From the NCBI RefSeq assembly GCF_000504285.1, contig NZ_KI632511.1, positions 7,856,154 to 7,920,153 of the forward strand: a stretch of 64,000 bases of DNA, read 5' to 3'. Position numbers and translations under genes: made by a program. The notes under the pieces are model-generated. The model searched no databases, was not told the origin of the DNA, and saw nothing but the letters and a program-made list of their open reading frames with translations. The DNA comes from Actinospica robiniae DSM 44927 (GTDB lineage: Bacteria > Actinomycetota > Actinomycetes > Streptomycetales > Catenulisporaceae). Every line of letters starts with the position of its first letter. Within the stretch, counting starts at the first letter, position 1. Positions 23,215-32,508 of this stretch are shown piece by piece.

Positions 23215-23347
23215 GGCTCACAGCTTGCCATGCCTTTGCCCTCGGCGTGATGGGATGGGGCGCGAGTCCAGCGGGATTTCCGTGACTCGGGAGCGCCCCG
23301 ACGCATCTGAGTTTTCAGACAGGAATCCGTGCGAGAAGGATGAAGAG

Positions 23348-25201
23348 GTGCCGCAGGTGGTCGGATTAGTCGACACGGAGTTGGCCGAGGCCGCGCGCTC
23401 GGGAGACGCGGACGCGCTGGACGCGCTGGTGGCCGAATGCCTGCCGCTGGTCTACTCGATAGTGCGCCGCTCGTTGCGAGCGAGTTCCGACGTCGACGAC
23501 GTGGTCCAAGACGTCATGCTCAACGTCGTGCGCGGCCTCGGCTCGCTGCGCGACCCGGAGCGGTTGCGGGCGTGGCTCGCGGCCGTCACGGTCAACCAGA
23601 TCCGCGTGTATCTGCGGTCCGGACGCACCGGATCGTTCGCCGTCGCGGACCGGTTCGAGCCCTTCGACCAACCGGACCCCGGCAGCGAGTTCGTCGGCCA
23701 TTCCCTGCTTCAGCTCGACCTGTCCGACCAGCGCCGGGAGACCGCGCGTGCGGCGAACTGGCTGGATCCGGAGCACCGCGACCTGCTCGGGTTGTGGTGG
23801 CTCGAGGCATCCGGACATCTCAGCCGGGCTGAGTTGATCGCCGCGCTCGGGCTGGACCCGCACCTCGTCACAGTGCGGGTGGCGCGGATGAAGGAGCAGC
23901 TCGACAGCTGCCGCCAGATACTGCGCGCTTTCGACTCCGGGTGCGTCGACCTGATGGAACTCGCGGCGGATTGGCGCGGCGAGACGTCGTCGGTGTGGCG
24001 CAAGCGCTTCATCCGGCACGTGCGAGCCTGCCATCGCTGCGTGTCCGCGACGGATGGTCTGATCGCCCCGGAGCGATTGCTCGCCGGACTTCCGCTGCTG
24101 CCACTGCCTCTCGCGTATCTCGGCCCTGCGCAAGGAGGCGCGGGTATCGCGGGCGCGGGCTACGGCACCGGACATTCGGGCGGTGGTTACGGGGCTGGGC
24201 ATGCGGGTTCAGGCTACGGGACGTCGCACGGGGCCGGCTTCGGGGTGCCGAACGGGGGTTCGGGCTACGGGACCGGCTATGAGACGACCGGCAGTGGCGG
24301 GCACTTAGCCGGGAGCTCGAGCGCTGGCGGCGGTGGGAGCGGCTCCGGTCCCGATACGGCGACGGTGCACCTTGAACACAGCCGCCATAGTGCGCGGCAT
24401 CGCGCCGGTTCGCACGGCGGGGCTGCGGGAGGTTCGTCGGGTAAGACCGGCGTCGCCTCACTGTTCGGCAAGCCGCTTGGTGTCGCCGCGGCGGTGTTGT
24501 CGGTACTCGGTGTCGCGGCAGCGGTCGTCTTCGTCGCTCGACCCGCCACGACGACGTCGGCGGTCCAATCGCAGTCCACCAGCCAGTCCGCGCCGGTGTC
24601 GACCGCGCTCGCTTCGGTGGGCTCCGTGGTCGTCCCATCTACGCAGGCTTCGCAGAGTTCCGCCGCAGCTTCGCCGTCACCGACGCACGCGGCCAGCCAC
24701 AGCGCGTCGGCCTCCGCCCACGCGACGCACCCGGCGGCGCCGGTGACGTCGACGACGAGCTCCGGCTCAAGTGGGAGCCAGAGCCCTGCGGAGCAGGTGC
24801 TCGCGGTGATCAACGCGGCACGCAAATCGGCAGGGCTCCCGGCGTACACGATGAGCTCGGGCCTGATCAAGAGCGCGACCGCGCATAACAACCTGATGGC
24901 CGACGGCTGCGGACTCTCGCACCAATGCTCGGGCGAGCCCGCGATCGGCGACCGGGTGACGGCAGCCGGCGTGCACTGGACGGCGTGCGGCGAGAACATC
25001 GGCGAGGGCGGCCCCGAACCGGACACGCAGGCCGGGATGGCGAAGATGGCGGTGGGTCTCACGAACGACATGCTCGCCGAGAAGCCGCCGAACGACGGGC
25101 ACCGGCTCAATATTCTGAGTTCGAGCTTTACGGAAGTCGGCATCGTGGTCTCGATCGACTCGTCCGGGACGGTCTGGATGACGCAGGACTTCGCGAACTG
25201 A
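23348..25201 (+). CDS. Membrane-spanning ECF-type sigma factor with secreted CAP domain
   Basis: The product is about 617 residues. Residues about 10-90 form a sigma-70 region 2 (DVDDVVQDVMLNVVRGLGSL, with LRAWLAAVTVNQIRVYL). Residues about 140-200 form a region 4-like HTH. Next comes an H-x3-C-x2-C motif (His224, Cys228, Cys231), like the zinc motif of anti-sigma factors. A Gly/Tyr/Ser-rich linker follows, then one membrane helix at about 377-400 (GVAAAVLSVLGVAAAVVFVA), then an outer Ser/Thr linker. Residues about 478-617 form a CAP (SCP/PR1) domain ending GHRLNILSSSFTEVGIVV. GTG 23348 is chosen for its upstream AAGGA. Regulated release of the sigma part is a possibility, not shown. Confidence 0.87.
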   Translation: MPQVVGLVDTELAEAARSGDADALDALVAECLPLVYSIVRRSLRASSDVDDVVQDVMLNVVRGLGSLRDPERLRAWLAAVTVNQIRVYLRSGRTGSFAVADRFEPFDQPDPGSEFVGHSLLQLDLSDQRRETARAANWLDPEHRDLLGLWWLEASGHLSRAELIAALGLDPHLVTVRVARMKEQLDSCRQILRAFDSGCVDLMELAADWRGETSSVWRKRFIRHVRACHRCVSATDGLIAPERLLAGLPLLPLPLAYLGPAQGGAGIAGAGYGTGHSGGGYGAGHAGSGYGTSHGAGFGVPNGGSGYGTGYETTGSGGHLAGSSSAGGGGSGSGPDTATVHLEHSRHSARHRAGSHGGAAGGSSGKTGVASLFGKPLGVAAAVLSVLGVAAAVVFVARPATTTSAVQSQSTSQSAPVSTALASVGSVVVPSTQASQSSAAASPSPTHAASHSASASAHATHPAAPVTSTTSSGSSGSQSPAEQVLAVINAARKSAGLPAYTMSSGLIKSATAHNNLMADGCGLSHQCSGEPAIGDRVTAAGVHWTACGENIGEGGPEPDTQAGMAKMAVGLTNDMLAEKPPNDGHRLNILSSSFTEVGIVVSIDSSGTVWMTQDFAN

Positions 25202-28810: not shown

Positions 28811-29176
28811 CGCGACGTCGGTCCCTTCTCGAGCGTCCGAGCGGCTTGCCGTGCAACTTACCGGCGGGTCACCCCGTGTCTGGGAGAGGTTTCCTCAGCT
28901 GTTCTCGCAATCGTGACCTTTCGTTGATCTTCCCGTTCGTCACAGTCTCCGAAACCGGCCCGCTATATCTGAATATTTCCACCCAGAACCCCAATTCCCT
29001 TAAGACTAAACGCTTTCGCGGCCCTTGCCCAGCGCGTGCGGCGCGACGCAAGCTGTGAGCGCCGGACTCGGTCACCCACCCATGGATCGGCCGGCATCCT
29101 TGCGCGCCGGGCGGCATTGACGGCTCGTAGAGCCGCCCGGCCGCGACCCTTAGCCCACAACAAGGGAGATCCGCCC
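28811..29176. other. 366-base divergent intergenic region before the G1 peptidase
   Basis: This gap separates the HTH regulator (minus) from the peptidase (plus). A relatively AT-rich stretch (about 28905-29015, including CTATATCTGAATATTTCC) probably contains the promoters. I see no gene and no clean palindrome. Confidence 0.55.
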
Positions 29177-29971
29177 ATGTCCCACAGGTCTTATGTCCGT
29201 GCTCTGGCGATCGGCGCGGCCGGCCTCACCGCGGCCTTCAGCGCGCCCGCCGCCTTCGCCGCCTCCACCCCGGCCGCCGCCACCGGCCAGATCAGCGCCG
29301 CCATGGCCAGCCAGGAGAGCCACGGCCTGCACGCCCTCACCTCACTGCGTTCCGCCACCGTGTCCTCGACCAACTGGTCGGGCTACGCCGCCACCGGCGC
29401 CTCCGGCGCGTTCACCTCGGTCTCCGCCTCCTGGACCCAGCCGACCATCACCTGCACCTCGAAGACCACTTACTCCTCCTTCTGGGTCGGGCTCGACGGA
29501 TACAGCAACTCGGCGCTGGAGCAGACCGGCACCGAGGCGGACTGCATCGGCGGCAAGGCGAAGTACGGCGCGTGGTGGGAGGTGCTCCCCGCCTCGGAGA
29601 GCGCCTACTCGGTGACCGTCAAGGCGGGCGACTCGCTCACCGCGAGCGTCGCGCGCAACAGCAGCGGAACCTTCACCATGACCCTGACCGACTCCACCCA
29701 GGGCTGGACCAAGACCACGACCCACGCCGGCTCCTCCGGCTACCAGGACTCGTCCGCCGAGGTCATCGCGGAGGCGACCGAGGTCAACGGCCGGATCGCG
29801 AACCTGTCCAACTTCGGCACGGTGAACTTCAAGAACGCCACCGCGAACGGGACCGCACTCGGTAGCTACTCGCCGACCGAGATCGTGATGGCCGGCAGCT
29901 CGGACACGAAGGCGCAGCCGGGCTCGATCTCCGGCGGCTCCTTCTCGGACACCTGGAAGAACTACACCTGA
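29177..29971 (+). CDS. Secreted G1-family (eqolisin-like) glutamic peptidase
   Basis: The 264-residue protein has a signal peptide (about 1-29, AAFSAPAAFAAS) and a jelly-roll G1 domain beginning STNWSGYAATG. It contains YSSFWVGLDGYSNSALEQTG, WWEVLPASESAYSV and SSAEVIAEATEV. The Gln in LEQTGTEAD and the Glu in SSAEVIAEA match the catalytic Gln and Glu of fungal scytalidoglutamic peptidase. Members cut proteins at acid pH outside the cell. ATG 29177 has AAGGGAGA upstream. A GC hairpin follows the stop. Confidence 0.88.
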   Translation: MSHRSYVRALAIGAAGLTAAFSAPAAFAASTPAAATGQISAAMASQESHGLHALTSLRSATVSSTNWSGYAATGASGAFTSVSASWTQPTITCTSKTTYSSFWVGLDGYSNSALEQTGTEADCIGGKAKYGAWWEVLPASESAYSVTVKAGDSLTASVARNSSGTFTMTLTDSTQGWTKTTTHAGSSGYQDSSAEVIAEATEVNGRIANLSNFGTVNFKNATANGTALGSYSPTEIVMAGSSDTKAQPGSISGGSFSDTWKNYT

Positions 29972-30915: not shown

Positions 30916-32508
30916 ATGTCAGCCTTGAGCCACCCACCCACATCCTCATCACCCACGTCGGCTTCCGGGCCGGGCGGCCGTCGCCGTCGGACGGCTGCGT
31001 TGGTCTCCGGCGCTCTGGCGGTCGGTCTGGTCGCGAGTGTCAGCCTGCTGGCGAGCCCGGCGACGGCGGCGGCGACGAATCTGTTGTCCGATCCGGGCTT
31101 CGAGTCCTCGCTCTCCGGGTGGAGTTGCGATGCGGGGACGGCGGCGGTGGTCTCCTCGCCGGTGCACGCGGGTTCGGGGGCGCTGGCCGGGTCGCCTTCG
31201 TCTTCGGATGACGCGCAGTGCACGCAGACGGTCTCGGTGGTGCCGAACACGTCGTATACGTTGTCGGGGTATGTCGAGGGCTCGTATGTGTATATCGGGG
31301 TGAGCGGGGGCTCTTCGACGTGGACGCCGAGTGCGTCGAGTTGGCAGCAGTTGAGCGTGACGTTCACGACGGGTGCGTCGCAGACCTCTGTGCAGGTGTT
31401 CGTGCACGGCTGGTATGCGCAGCCGACGTATTACGCGGATGACCTGGCGCTGACGGGGCCGGCCGGGGCGAGCTCCTCGCCGTCCGCGAGCGCGTCCGCG
31501 AGCAAGACCCCCACGCCGTCCGCAAGCGCCAGCGCGAGCCCGTCGCACTCCGCCAGCCCGAGCGCCAGCGCCTCGCCGACGCCCACGGGCACCTCCACCG
31601 GCACCTCGGGCCCCTGGACCCACCCGGTGTACTGGATGCCGCTGGACAACGGCGCGCAATCGATCTCGTCGGTCATCTCAGGGTCCGGAGAGACCGAGTA
31701 CAACCTCTCCTTCGTGCTCGACTCGGGCGGCTGCACCCCGGCCTGGGACGGGAACTCCAGCGAGCTGGTCTCCTCCGACACGGCCGTGCTCGCGGACGTC
31801 AACGCGATCCGCGCGGCCGGCGGCGACGTCGCCGTGACCTTCGGCGGCTACAACGGCACCGAACTCGGCACGACCTGCGGGTCCGCGTCGGCTCTGGCCG
31901 CCGCCTACCAGCAGGTGATCACCAAGTACCACCTCACGCACGTCGACTTCGACTACGAGAACGGCGCGCTGGACTCGAACACCGCGATCCGCTTCGGCGC
32001 CATCGCCACCATCGAGAAGAACAACCCCAGCCTCAAGGTCTCGCTCACCATCCCGATGACCACCGTCGGCTTCCCCGGCACCGGCACCGACGAGATCCAG
32101 CAGGCCAAGGCGGACGGCGCCCGGCTCGACGTCGTCAACATCATGAACTTCGACACCGGCCTGACTTCGGGCACTGAGACCGGGCAGACCGAGACCATCA
32201 CCGACGACGCGATCACCCAGCTCGAGTCGATCTACGGCTGGAGCGCGGCGCAGGCCTGGTCGCACCTCGGGCTCACCCTGATGAACGGGCACACCGACCA
32301 GCCGTCCGAGCTGTTCCTGCAGTCGGACTTCTCGAACCTGCTGGCGTTCTCGAAGTCCAACCACCCGGCTCTGTTCTCGTTCTGGTCGGCGAACCGGGAC
32401 TTCCCGTGCCCGTCCGGCGCGGTCGAGCCCTGGGCTCCGGGCACCTGCTCGAACGTGACGCAGAACGCTTACGACTTCACGAAGATCATCGTGCAGTACG
32501 GCGGCTGA
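30916..32508 (+). CDS. Secreted GH18 chitinase with N-terminal carbohydrate-binding module
   Basis: The product of about 530 residues has an extended signal region (AALVSGALAVGLVASVSLLA). A CBM4/16-like beta-sandwich follows at about 52-180 (NLLSDPGFESSLSGW, ending YYADDLALTG), then a Ser/Thr/Pro linker, then a GH18 barrel from about 235 with the catalytic motif LTHVDFDYENGAL (D-x-D-x-E). It hydrolyses chitin outside the cell. AGGAG is directly at the ATG 30916, so TTG 30925, nine bases on, may be the true start. Two DasR-like sites overlap the promoter. Confidence 0.9.
   Translation: MSALSHPPTSSSPTSASGPGGRRRRTAALVSGALAVGLVASVSLLASPATAAATNLLSDPGFESSLSGWSCDAGTAAVVSSPVHAGSGALAGSPSSSDDAQCTQTVSVVPNTSYTLSGYVEGSYVYIGVSGGSSTWTPSASSWQQLSVTFTTGASQTSVQVFVHGWYAQPTYYADDLALTGPAGASSSPSASASASKTPTPSASASASPSHSASPSASASPTPTGTSTGTSGPWTHPVYWMPLDNGAQSISSVISGSGETEYNLSFVLDSGGCTPAWDGNSSELVSSDTAVLADVNAIRAAGGDVAVTFGGYNGTELGTTCGSASALAAAYQQVITKYHLTHVDFDYENGALDSNTAIRFGAIATIEKNNPSLKVSLTIPMTTVGFPGTGTDEIQQAKADGARLDVVNIMNFDTGLTSGTETGQTETITDDAITQLESIYGWSAAQAWSHLGLTLMNGHTDQPSELFLQSDFSNLLAFSKSNHPALFSFWSANRDFPCPSGAVEPWAPGTCSNVTQNAYDFTKIIVQYGG

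Follow-up and report, generated by a model that had tools for sequence, protein, structure and literature searches.

We find that a single gene in the window (the whole 64,000-nucleotide stretch of Actinospica robiniae DNA analysed here) encodes, in this order and in one chain, an ECF sigma factor, a zinc anti-sigma-like domain, a membrane helix, and a CAP domain. The fused protein is probably a one-protein transmembrane signalling device, with a swappable sensor and a self-amplifying sigma factor. At rest, the sigma part would be held at the membrane, and the CHCC zinc domain behind region 4 would probably keep it off RNA polymerase. Detection of a cell-surface change by the outer CAP domain would set off proteolysis, possibly by an M50 protease, first in the stalk and next in the membrane helix, and this would free the sigma part. 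As a conserved promoter suggests, the freed sigma factor would then activate its own gene and, in relatives, also genes for secreted proteins, including some CAP genes that adjoin CAP-type sigma genes. Family members differ in the outer domain, which is exchanged, but keep the same cytoplasmic chassis, and many of them also keep the promoter.

From a GTG start, the frame reads through all 617 residues with no internal stop. The union of sigma factor, zinc motif, helix, and CAP domain proposed in an earlier, sequence-only reading of this DNA is thus borne out by an intact frame with Pfam and NCBIfam matches. That reading had allowed for a frameshift or an assembly error. Because the same full-length protein stands in the sister species Actinospica durhamensis, at 81% over the sigma part, such an artefact, or a chimera, is excluded; the protein is also intact across other genera. 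Both Sigma70_r2 and CAP exceed the Pfam cut-offs, the NCBIfam model TIGR02937 (sigma70-ECF) matches residues 22–186 above its cut-off, and residues 7–190 align with Escherichia coli SigE (1or7). Of the two sigma blocks claimed earlier, region 2 is confirmed by Pfam; region 4 has no Pfam match by itself and is recognised through TIGR02937 and SigE, with AlphaFold helices at residues 141–154, 160–167, and 171–197. With regions 2 and 4 present and region 3 absent by length, the protein is an ECF sigma factor. In a structure search with the AlphaFold model, residues 4–198 were spanned by at least one fifth of the matches listed. The model (pTM 0.56) gives neither a defined clamped sigma/anti-sigma arrangement nor a fixed placement of the two sigma domains relative to the zinc domain. 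Farther downstream in the window lie genes for a Peptidase_A4-family protein (29036–29971) and for one carrying the carbohydrate-binding domain CBM_4_9 (30916–32508).

Table 1. Features of the fused gene, in window positions.
Feature	Position	Strand	Basis
Putative own promoter, TTCCGTGACTC ... GCATCTGAG	23278..23311	+	About 70 nt upstream of the start codon
Whole fused gene, 617 aa	23348..25201	+	ORF and translation; full-length homologues in other genera
Sigma region 2, residues 27–92	23426..23623	+	PF04542, E 3e-13
Sigma region 4, diverged, about residues 134–190	23747..23917	+	TIGR02937, SigE 1or7, predicted helices
CHCC zinc anti-sigma-like domain, about residues 199–234	23942..24049	+	Cys199, His224, Cys228, Cys231
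Gly-rich linker, predicted cytoplasmic, residues 252–375	24101..24472	+	Composition, 42 Gly of 124
Membrane helix, about residues 376–398	24473..24541	+	Hydropathy 2.69
Stalk, predicted outer, Ser/Thr/Ala-rich, residues 399–480	24542..24787	+	Composition; no K/R/D/E
CAP domain, residues 485–615	24800..25192	+	PF00188, E 9.5e-10; fold model and structure search

The H-x3-C-x2-C motif reported earlier (His224, Cys228, and Cys231) is present, and Cys199, 25 residues upstream of His224, adds a candidate fourth ligand. ZAS domains are defined by HxxxCxxC with a Cys or His 23–26 residues upstream (available sections of PMC4960319). Since the spacing of 25 falls inside this range, the zinc domain is, by its sequence, of the CHCC type. 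All four are conserved in 161 of 162 homologues, the single exception (L149) being a gapped row in the alignment. Matches to known anti-sigma structures were non-significant, the best being 3hug_B (E 0.29), which we take to be RslA, followed by DdvA (E 1). The zf-HC2 model matches just 6 of 44 family members, the window protein not among them. Three short paralogues (L037, L045 on the + strand, and L079) end shortly after the zinc domain, without a membrane helix or outer domain; they may be natural untethered forms or decaying genes.

Because CHCC-type ZAS proteins are linked to redox sensing in RsrA (PMC4960319, in part), a cytoplasmic input to the window protein is possible by analogy. It might even be the main one: the CHCC domain would be the real sensor, disulfide stress would cause zinc loss and free the sigma factor in the cytoplasm, and the membrane and CAP parts would merely position the protein at the envelope. 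The near-invariance of the four ligands speaks for such a switch, which nevertheless leaves the conservation or exchange of outer domains and the long stalk unexplained, and under which the membrane tether would persist. We consider a redox switch unlikely.

A hydropathy scan from residue 226 onward finds just one strong hydrophobic helix in the window protein, as the sequence-only reading had proposed. Lys, Arg, and His residues precede this helix, and residues 399–480 contain no Lys or Arg; because of this charge distribution, the N terminus should lie inside and the CAP domain outside, which agrees with the extracellular position claimed earlier. The linker contains Gly/Tyr/His repeats of the GYGTGH type, and its length varies, with the helix beginning at residue 293 in the homologue L004 and at about 379 in the window protein.

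The suggestion that sensor, anti-sigma, and sigma share one chain is supported by this architecture; the further suggestion that proteolysis would release sigma has precedent in print. In the accessible parts of PMC8999054, ECF48, ECF52, and ECF53 proteins have zinc, membrane, and outer parts, with release by proteolysis expected. For the ECF52 protein SCO4117 of Streptomyces coelicolor, proteolytic release and autoregulation have been proposed, and a version truncated to the sigma part caused a defect that was less severe than when the gene was lost (PMC5826349, in part). The window genome has four M50 protease matches in three frames; their presence says little, because all 14 control genomes carry M50 proteases too. 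Nothing measured here demands cleavage, and the linker is long and Gly-rich, so one may also imagine a sigma factor that works while in the membrane, its output altered by shape. Against this stand the family precedent of release, namely, the release proposed for SCO4117 together with its truncation data (PMC5826349, in part), and the cleavage of IutY (PMC8999054, in part). Signalling without cleavage thus appears very unlikely, and we favour release.

The outer domain belongs to the CAP superfamily by both fold and signature. The final 143 residues are modelled as a CAP fold with a pLDDT of 96.8, and the PDB matches of the model are 4ifa, GAPR-1, BB0689, and Pry1 (best E 2.3e-08). It is the sole CAP domain detected (E ≤ 0.001) in its own 9.9-Mb genome. 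Among 82 CAP-type members, His525 is kept in 79, Glu549 in 75, and His585 in 77; these residues may correspond to the His/Glu cavity residues of eukaryotic CAP proteins. The window protein falls in a longer, insert-type group (26 of the 82), all 26 of which have the Cys521/Cys527 pair, a possible disulfide judging from the sequences.

The job of bacterial CAP domains is poorly known, and here the domain could be an effector, such as a surface enzyme or a binding protein, with the sigma factor reporting its correct export or assembly. The retention of the three residues, which would fit a need for a functional cavity, and the glycosyl hydrolase domains of other members are in keeping with this. 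A single copy tied to a regulator would, however, be a poor enzyme supply, and the AbfB and ricin-type domains found fused to sigma look, from their family names, like binding rather than catalysis. We hold an effector role to be quite unlikely and continue to treat the outer domain as a sensor.

With the sigma part as query, a match at E ≤ 0.001 was obtained in all 60 genomes searched, the window genome included, although in 13 of these the best match was only about 1e-13 or weaker, a level that any ECF sigma factor could reach. We read 90 frames from this set (leaving out matches below 60 bits) and 80 from a second set (the best 80 of 435, leaving out matches below 90 bits), with some genomes overlapping and homologue start codons picked by script. 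Before tree building, rows of fewer than 240 residues and rows whose sigma parts were identical were removed, which reduced these 170 to 162 distinct homologues, including 12 with no assigned outer domain and 8 short ones, some at contig ends. The sequence-only reading had considered that sigma and CAP parts might always be separate genes in homologues; instead, the fusion is widespread, with CAP in 82 of the 162 (local labels, window protein counted).

The remaining outer domains are diverse. By the same labels, they comprise a glycosyl hydrolase core (30), an uncharacterised domain here called VRDTG (13), AbfB (9), a GH99-like domain (4), a second uncharacterised domain (2), a ricin-type domain (1), and a beta-helix (1). 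A Pfam tally of 77 full-length proteins, which leans to CAP since they were fetched with a CAP-type query, gives CAP in 37, glycosyl hydrolase core in 24, AbfB in 4, and beta-helix in 2; ricin-type lectin and GH99 were found as outer domains in further members. The window genome itself has other family members with a glycosyl hydrolase core (L038), an uncharacterised domain (L065), and AbfB (L083, local label), as well as a short one (L087). All of the best 80 of 435 loci are from Actinomycetota, and the 40 CAP-labelled loci among them span five NCBI orders: Kitasatosporales (26), Pseudonocardiales (5), Catenulisporales (4), Micromonosporales (4), and Mycobacteriales (1).

On a quick tree of sigma parts, built by a short search and with several long branches, the outer domain changes at least eight times among five states, and between CAP and non-CAP at least twice; rows labelled other, short, prop, ricin, or beta-helix were left out of this count. 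The CAP members mostly form two groups on the tree. One sigma-CAP gene (L088, genome G033) appears as two overlapping frames, a pattern that a frameshift or a sequencing error could produce. Among the matches listed, matching proteins on plasmid records are annotated as sigma-70 family RNA polymerase sigma factor in 9 of 15 cases and unannotated in 6.

A conserved promoter precedes many of the sigma-fusion genes. Counting paired words upstream of 163 family genes, we found GTTAT-N18/19-TCTCC exactly in 77 upstream regions, 49–120 nt from the script-chosen start; in full, the family promoter reads TGTTATC-N16/17-GTCTCC. Its position suggests autoregulation, and the motif is presumably the one read by these fused sigma factors. 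The exact motif occurs upstream of 43 of 76 CAP, 19 of 30 hydrolase-core, and 6 of 13 VRDTG members, and is absent upstream of all nine AbfB and all four GH99 members. A general family matrix matches 125 of the 163 upstream regions, a partly circular figure, as the matrix was trained on those regions.

Across the 60 genomes, the exact motif occurs at 32 sites in 21 genomes (reversed control, 0). Behind 17 of these sites lie sigma-fusion genes, including one broken copy. The others precede six alginate-lyase-like genes, six beta-repeat genes, and one stand-alone CAP gene (L182), with one further site lacking a clear gene and one whose gene was left unread; three of the proteins behind the 32 sites were checked by Pfam and the others judged by eye. 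Thus, 13 sites have an assigned gene that is not a sigma fusion, and at 12 of them this gene is not a CAP gene either. Both the lyase-like proteins (L179, L181, L193, L194, L196, and L197) and the beta-repeat proteins, which carry PATR (L174, L178, L185, L188, L189, and L195), have export-signal-like starts; the Pfam scan covered L193 and L174. They are candidate targets of other family members. A comparison of the VRDTG outer domain with the lyase-like proteins gave zero matches. A relaxed motif yields 42 sites in 30 genomes (control, 0), and the 10 additional sites are all at sigma-fusion genes.

The promoter of the window gene is a variant, and the weaker case, because it scores −9 (poor) with the general matrix. 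The variant, TTCCGTGACTC with GCATCTGAG, is common to the window species and A. durhamensis, its first block recurring in the third genome of the genus, and the block GGATTTCCGTGA is identical across three Actinospica genomes, whose promoter is of the TTCCGTGAC type. In these three genomes, the pattern TTCCGTGAYN{16,18}RTCTS recovers the own-gene promoter in all three and has four matches in total (reversed control, 2), the fourth, in A. durhamensis, preceding a 140-aa frame of a different kind. A Catenulisporaceae variant, CTGTGACN{17,18}GTCTCC, has nine sites in 14 genomes, five of them at CAP-sigma genes; with three control matches, the other four are near background and were rejected as targets. 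Over the whole window, the family matrix gives zero sites scoring above 12, and motif searches of the window genome found no target beyond the fused gene itself. The sole exact site in that genome (G000, 916075) has no convincing gene behind it and was likewise rejected.

Stand-alone CAP genes are not a general regulon of these sigma factors. We picked 80 such genes among the matches listed (frames no longer than about 500 aa and lacking a sigma part; at two of them, L305 and L329, a contig end truncates the region), and only five score above 10 on their own strand: four strongly (26.6, 26.7, 25.9, and 32.3) and one weakly. In a shuffled control, one of 80 regions passes the same cut. Among the matches listed, a CAP gene adjoins a CAP-type sigma gene in four genomes (L254, L281, L302, and L277 in G036, G054, G052, and G032), which form group g4 and are presumably Streptomyces. 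Three of these four linked CAP genes have a strong motif (25.9–26.7) on their own strand, and possible starts of the CAP frames lie about 1–106 nt behind the strong motifs. The fourth, L277, has a match of 12.1, which we discount as a promoter: it is weak and lies 264 nt ahead of the first start codon. Among unlinked stand-alone CAP genes, the motif occurs at 1 of 76 (L289, the same gene as L182). In 30 further CAP loci, sigma fusions included, strong motifs occur at L206, L214, L219, and L230, all sigma fusions, and one match of 10.5 falls inside L213; with the 1500-base flank used, the promoter of a long frame may be overlooked, which happened at L212. CAP genes linked to a CAP-type sigma gene thus often appear to be under the family promoter and most CAP genes do not, a lead that comes from three linked cases and one unlinked.

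These patterns invite a matching rule, which we raise tentatively and think rather doubtful: sigma factor, zinc brake, and promoter would be fixed, and the outer domain would match the secreted targets in class, so that the CAP branch would watch CAP proteins or their ligand. If this is true, a membrane CAP domain controls secreted CAP genes, and bacterial CAP domains can be receptors. The signalling model would, more broadly, place bacterial CAP domains in signalling. The swappable outer domain, which points to a natural platform for receptors made of one protein, and the promoter are additions to what the sequence-only reading had seen. The predicted promoter also opens a direct way into the regulon of a large, little-studied class of actinobacterial sigma factors.

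Among the papers listed by literature searches (at most the top 20 of the larger result sets), we found no description of a CAP-sigma fusion, which the main ECF classification papers may mention, and none of the likely promoter or of how it connects to certain secreted CAP proteins. Neither ECF52 nor ECF53 is named in the accessible text of PMC7406223 on fused forms. The window protein has the ECF52/ECF53-type layout, with a C-terminal zinc domain, helix, and outer domain in one chain, and likely belongs to ECF53, by comparison with the published group description rather than with reference sequences. ECF53 proteins share a C-terminal fusion that comprises a zinc finger, one or two membrane helices, and external regions, and some ECF52 and ECF53 proteins bear glycosyl hydrolase and carbohydrate-binding domains; CAP, the outer domain of the window protein, is not mentioned in the available parts of these sources (PMC8999054 and PMC10766802) or of PMC5826349. 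SCO4117 likewise joins sigma, zinc finger, membrane segment, and a long outer ligand-binding extension, but has a proline-rich stalk, the carbohydrate-binding module smart00776, a zinc finger recognised as pfam13490, and a proposed promoter, CSGYN-17-SRHA, of its own (PMC5826349, in part). The window protein falls outside ECF52 as typified by SCO4117: zf-HC2 gives no match at E ≤ 1, and the outer domain is CAP.

More distant systems share parts of this design. Pseudomonas putida, the host of IutY, is Gram-negative, and the SigI/RsgI systems consist of separate sigma and anti-sigma proteins of a non-ECF type. In IutY (ECF243), a sigma factor is fused to a membrane-bound anti-sigma factor and freed by Prc and RseP, but the signal is a siderophore, and the accessible text describes no CAP domain or zinc site (PMC8999054). 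Clostridium thermocellum has nine paralogous SigI/RsgI sensors for different substrates, with RseP cleavage (PMC12203970, in part). The ZAS anti-sigma factor RsrA has CHCC ligands with the same 23–26 residue spacing (PMC4960319, in part), whereas the zinc domain of the window protein is fused in cis behind region 4. The general design is thus known from ECF52/ECF53, with proteolytic release proposed (PMC8999054 and PMC5826349, each in part), and the conserved promoter TGTTATC-N16/17-GTCTCC is new here.
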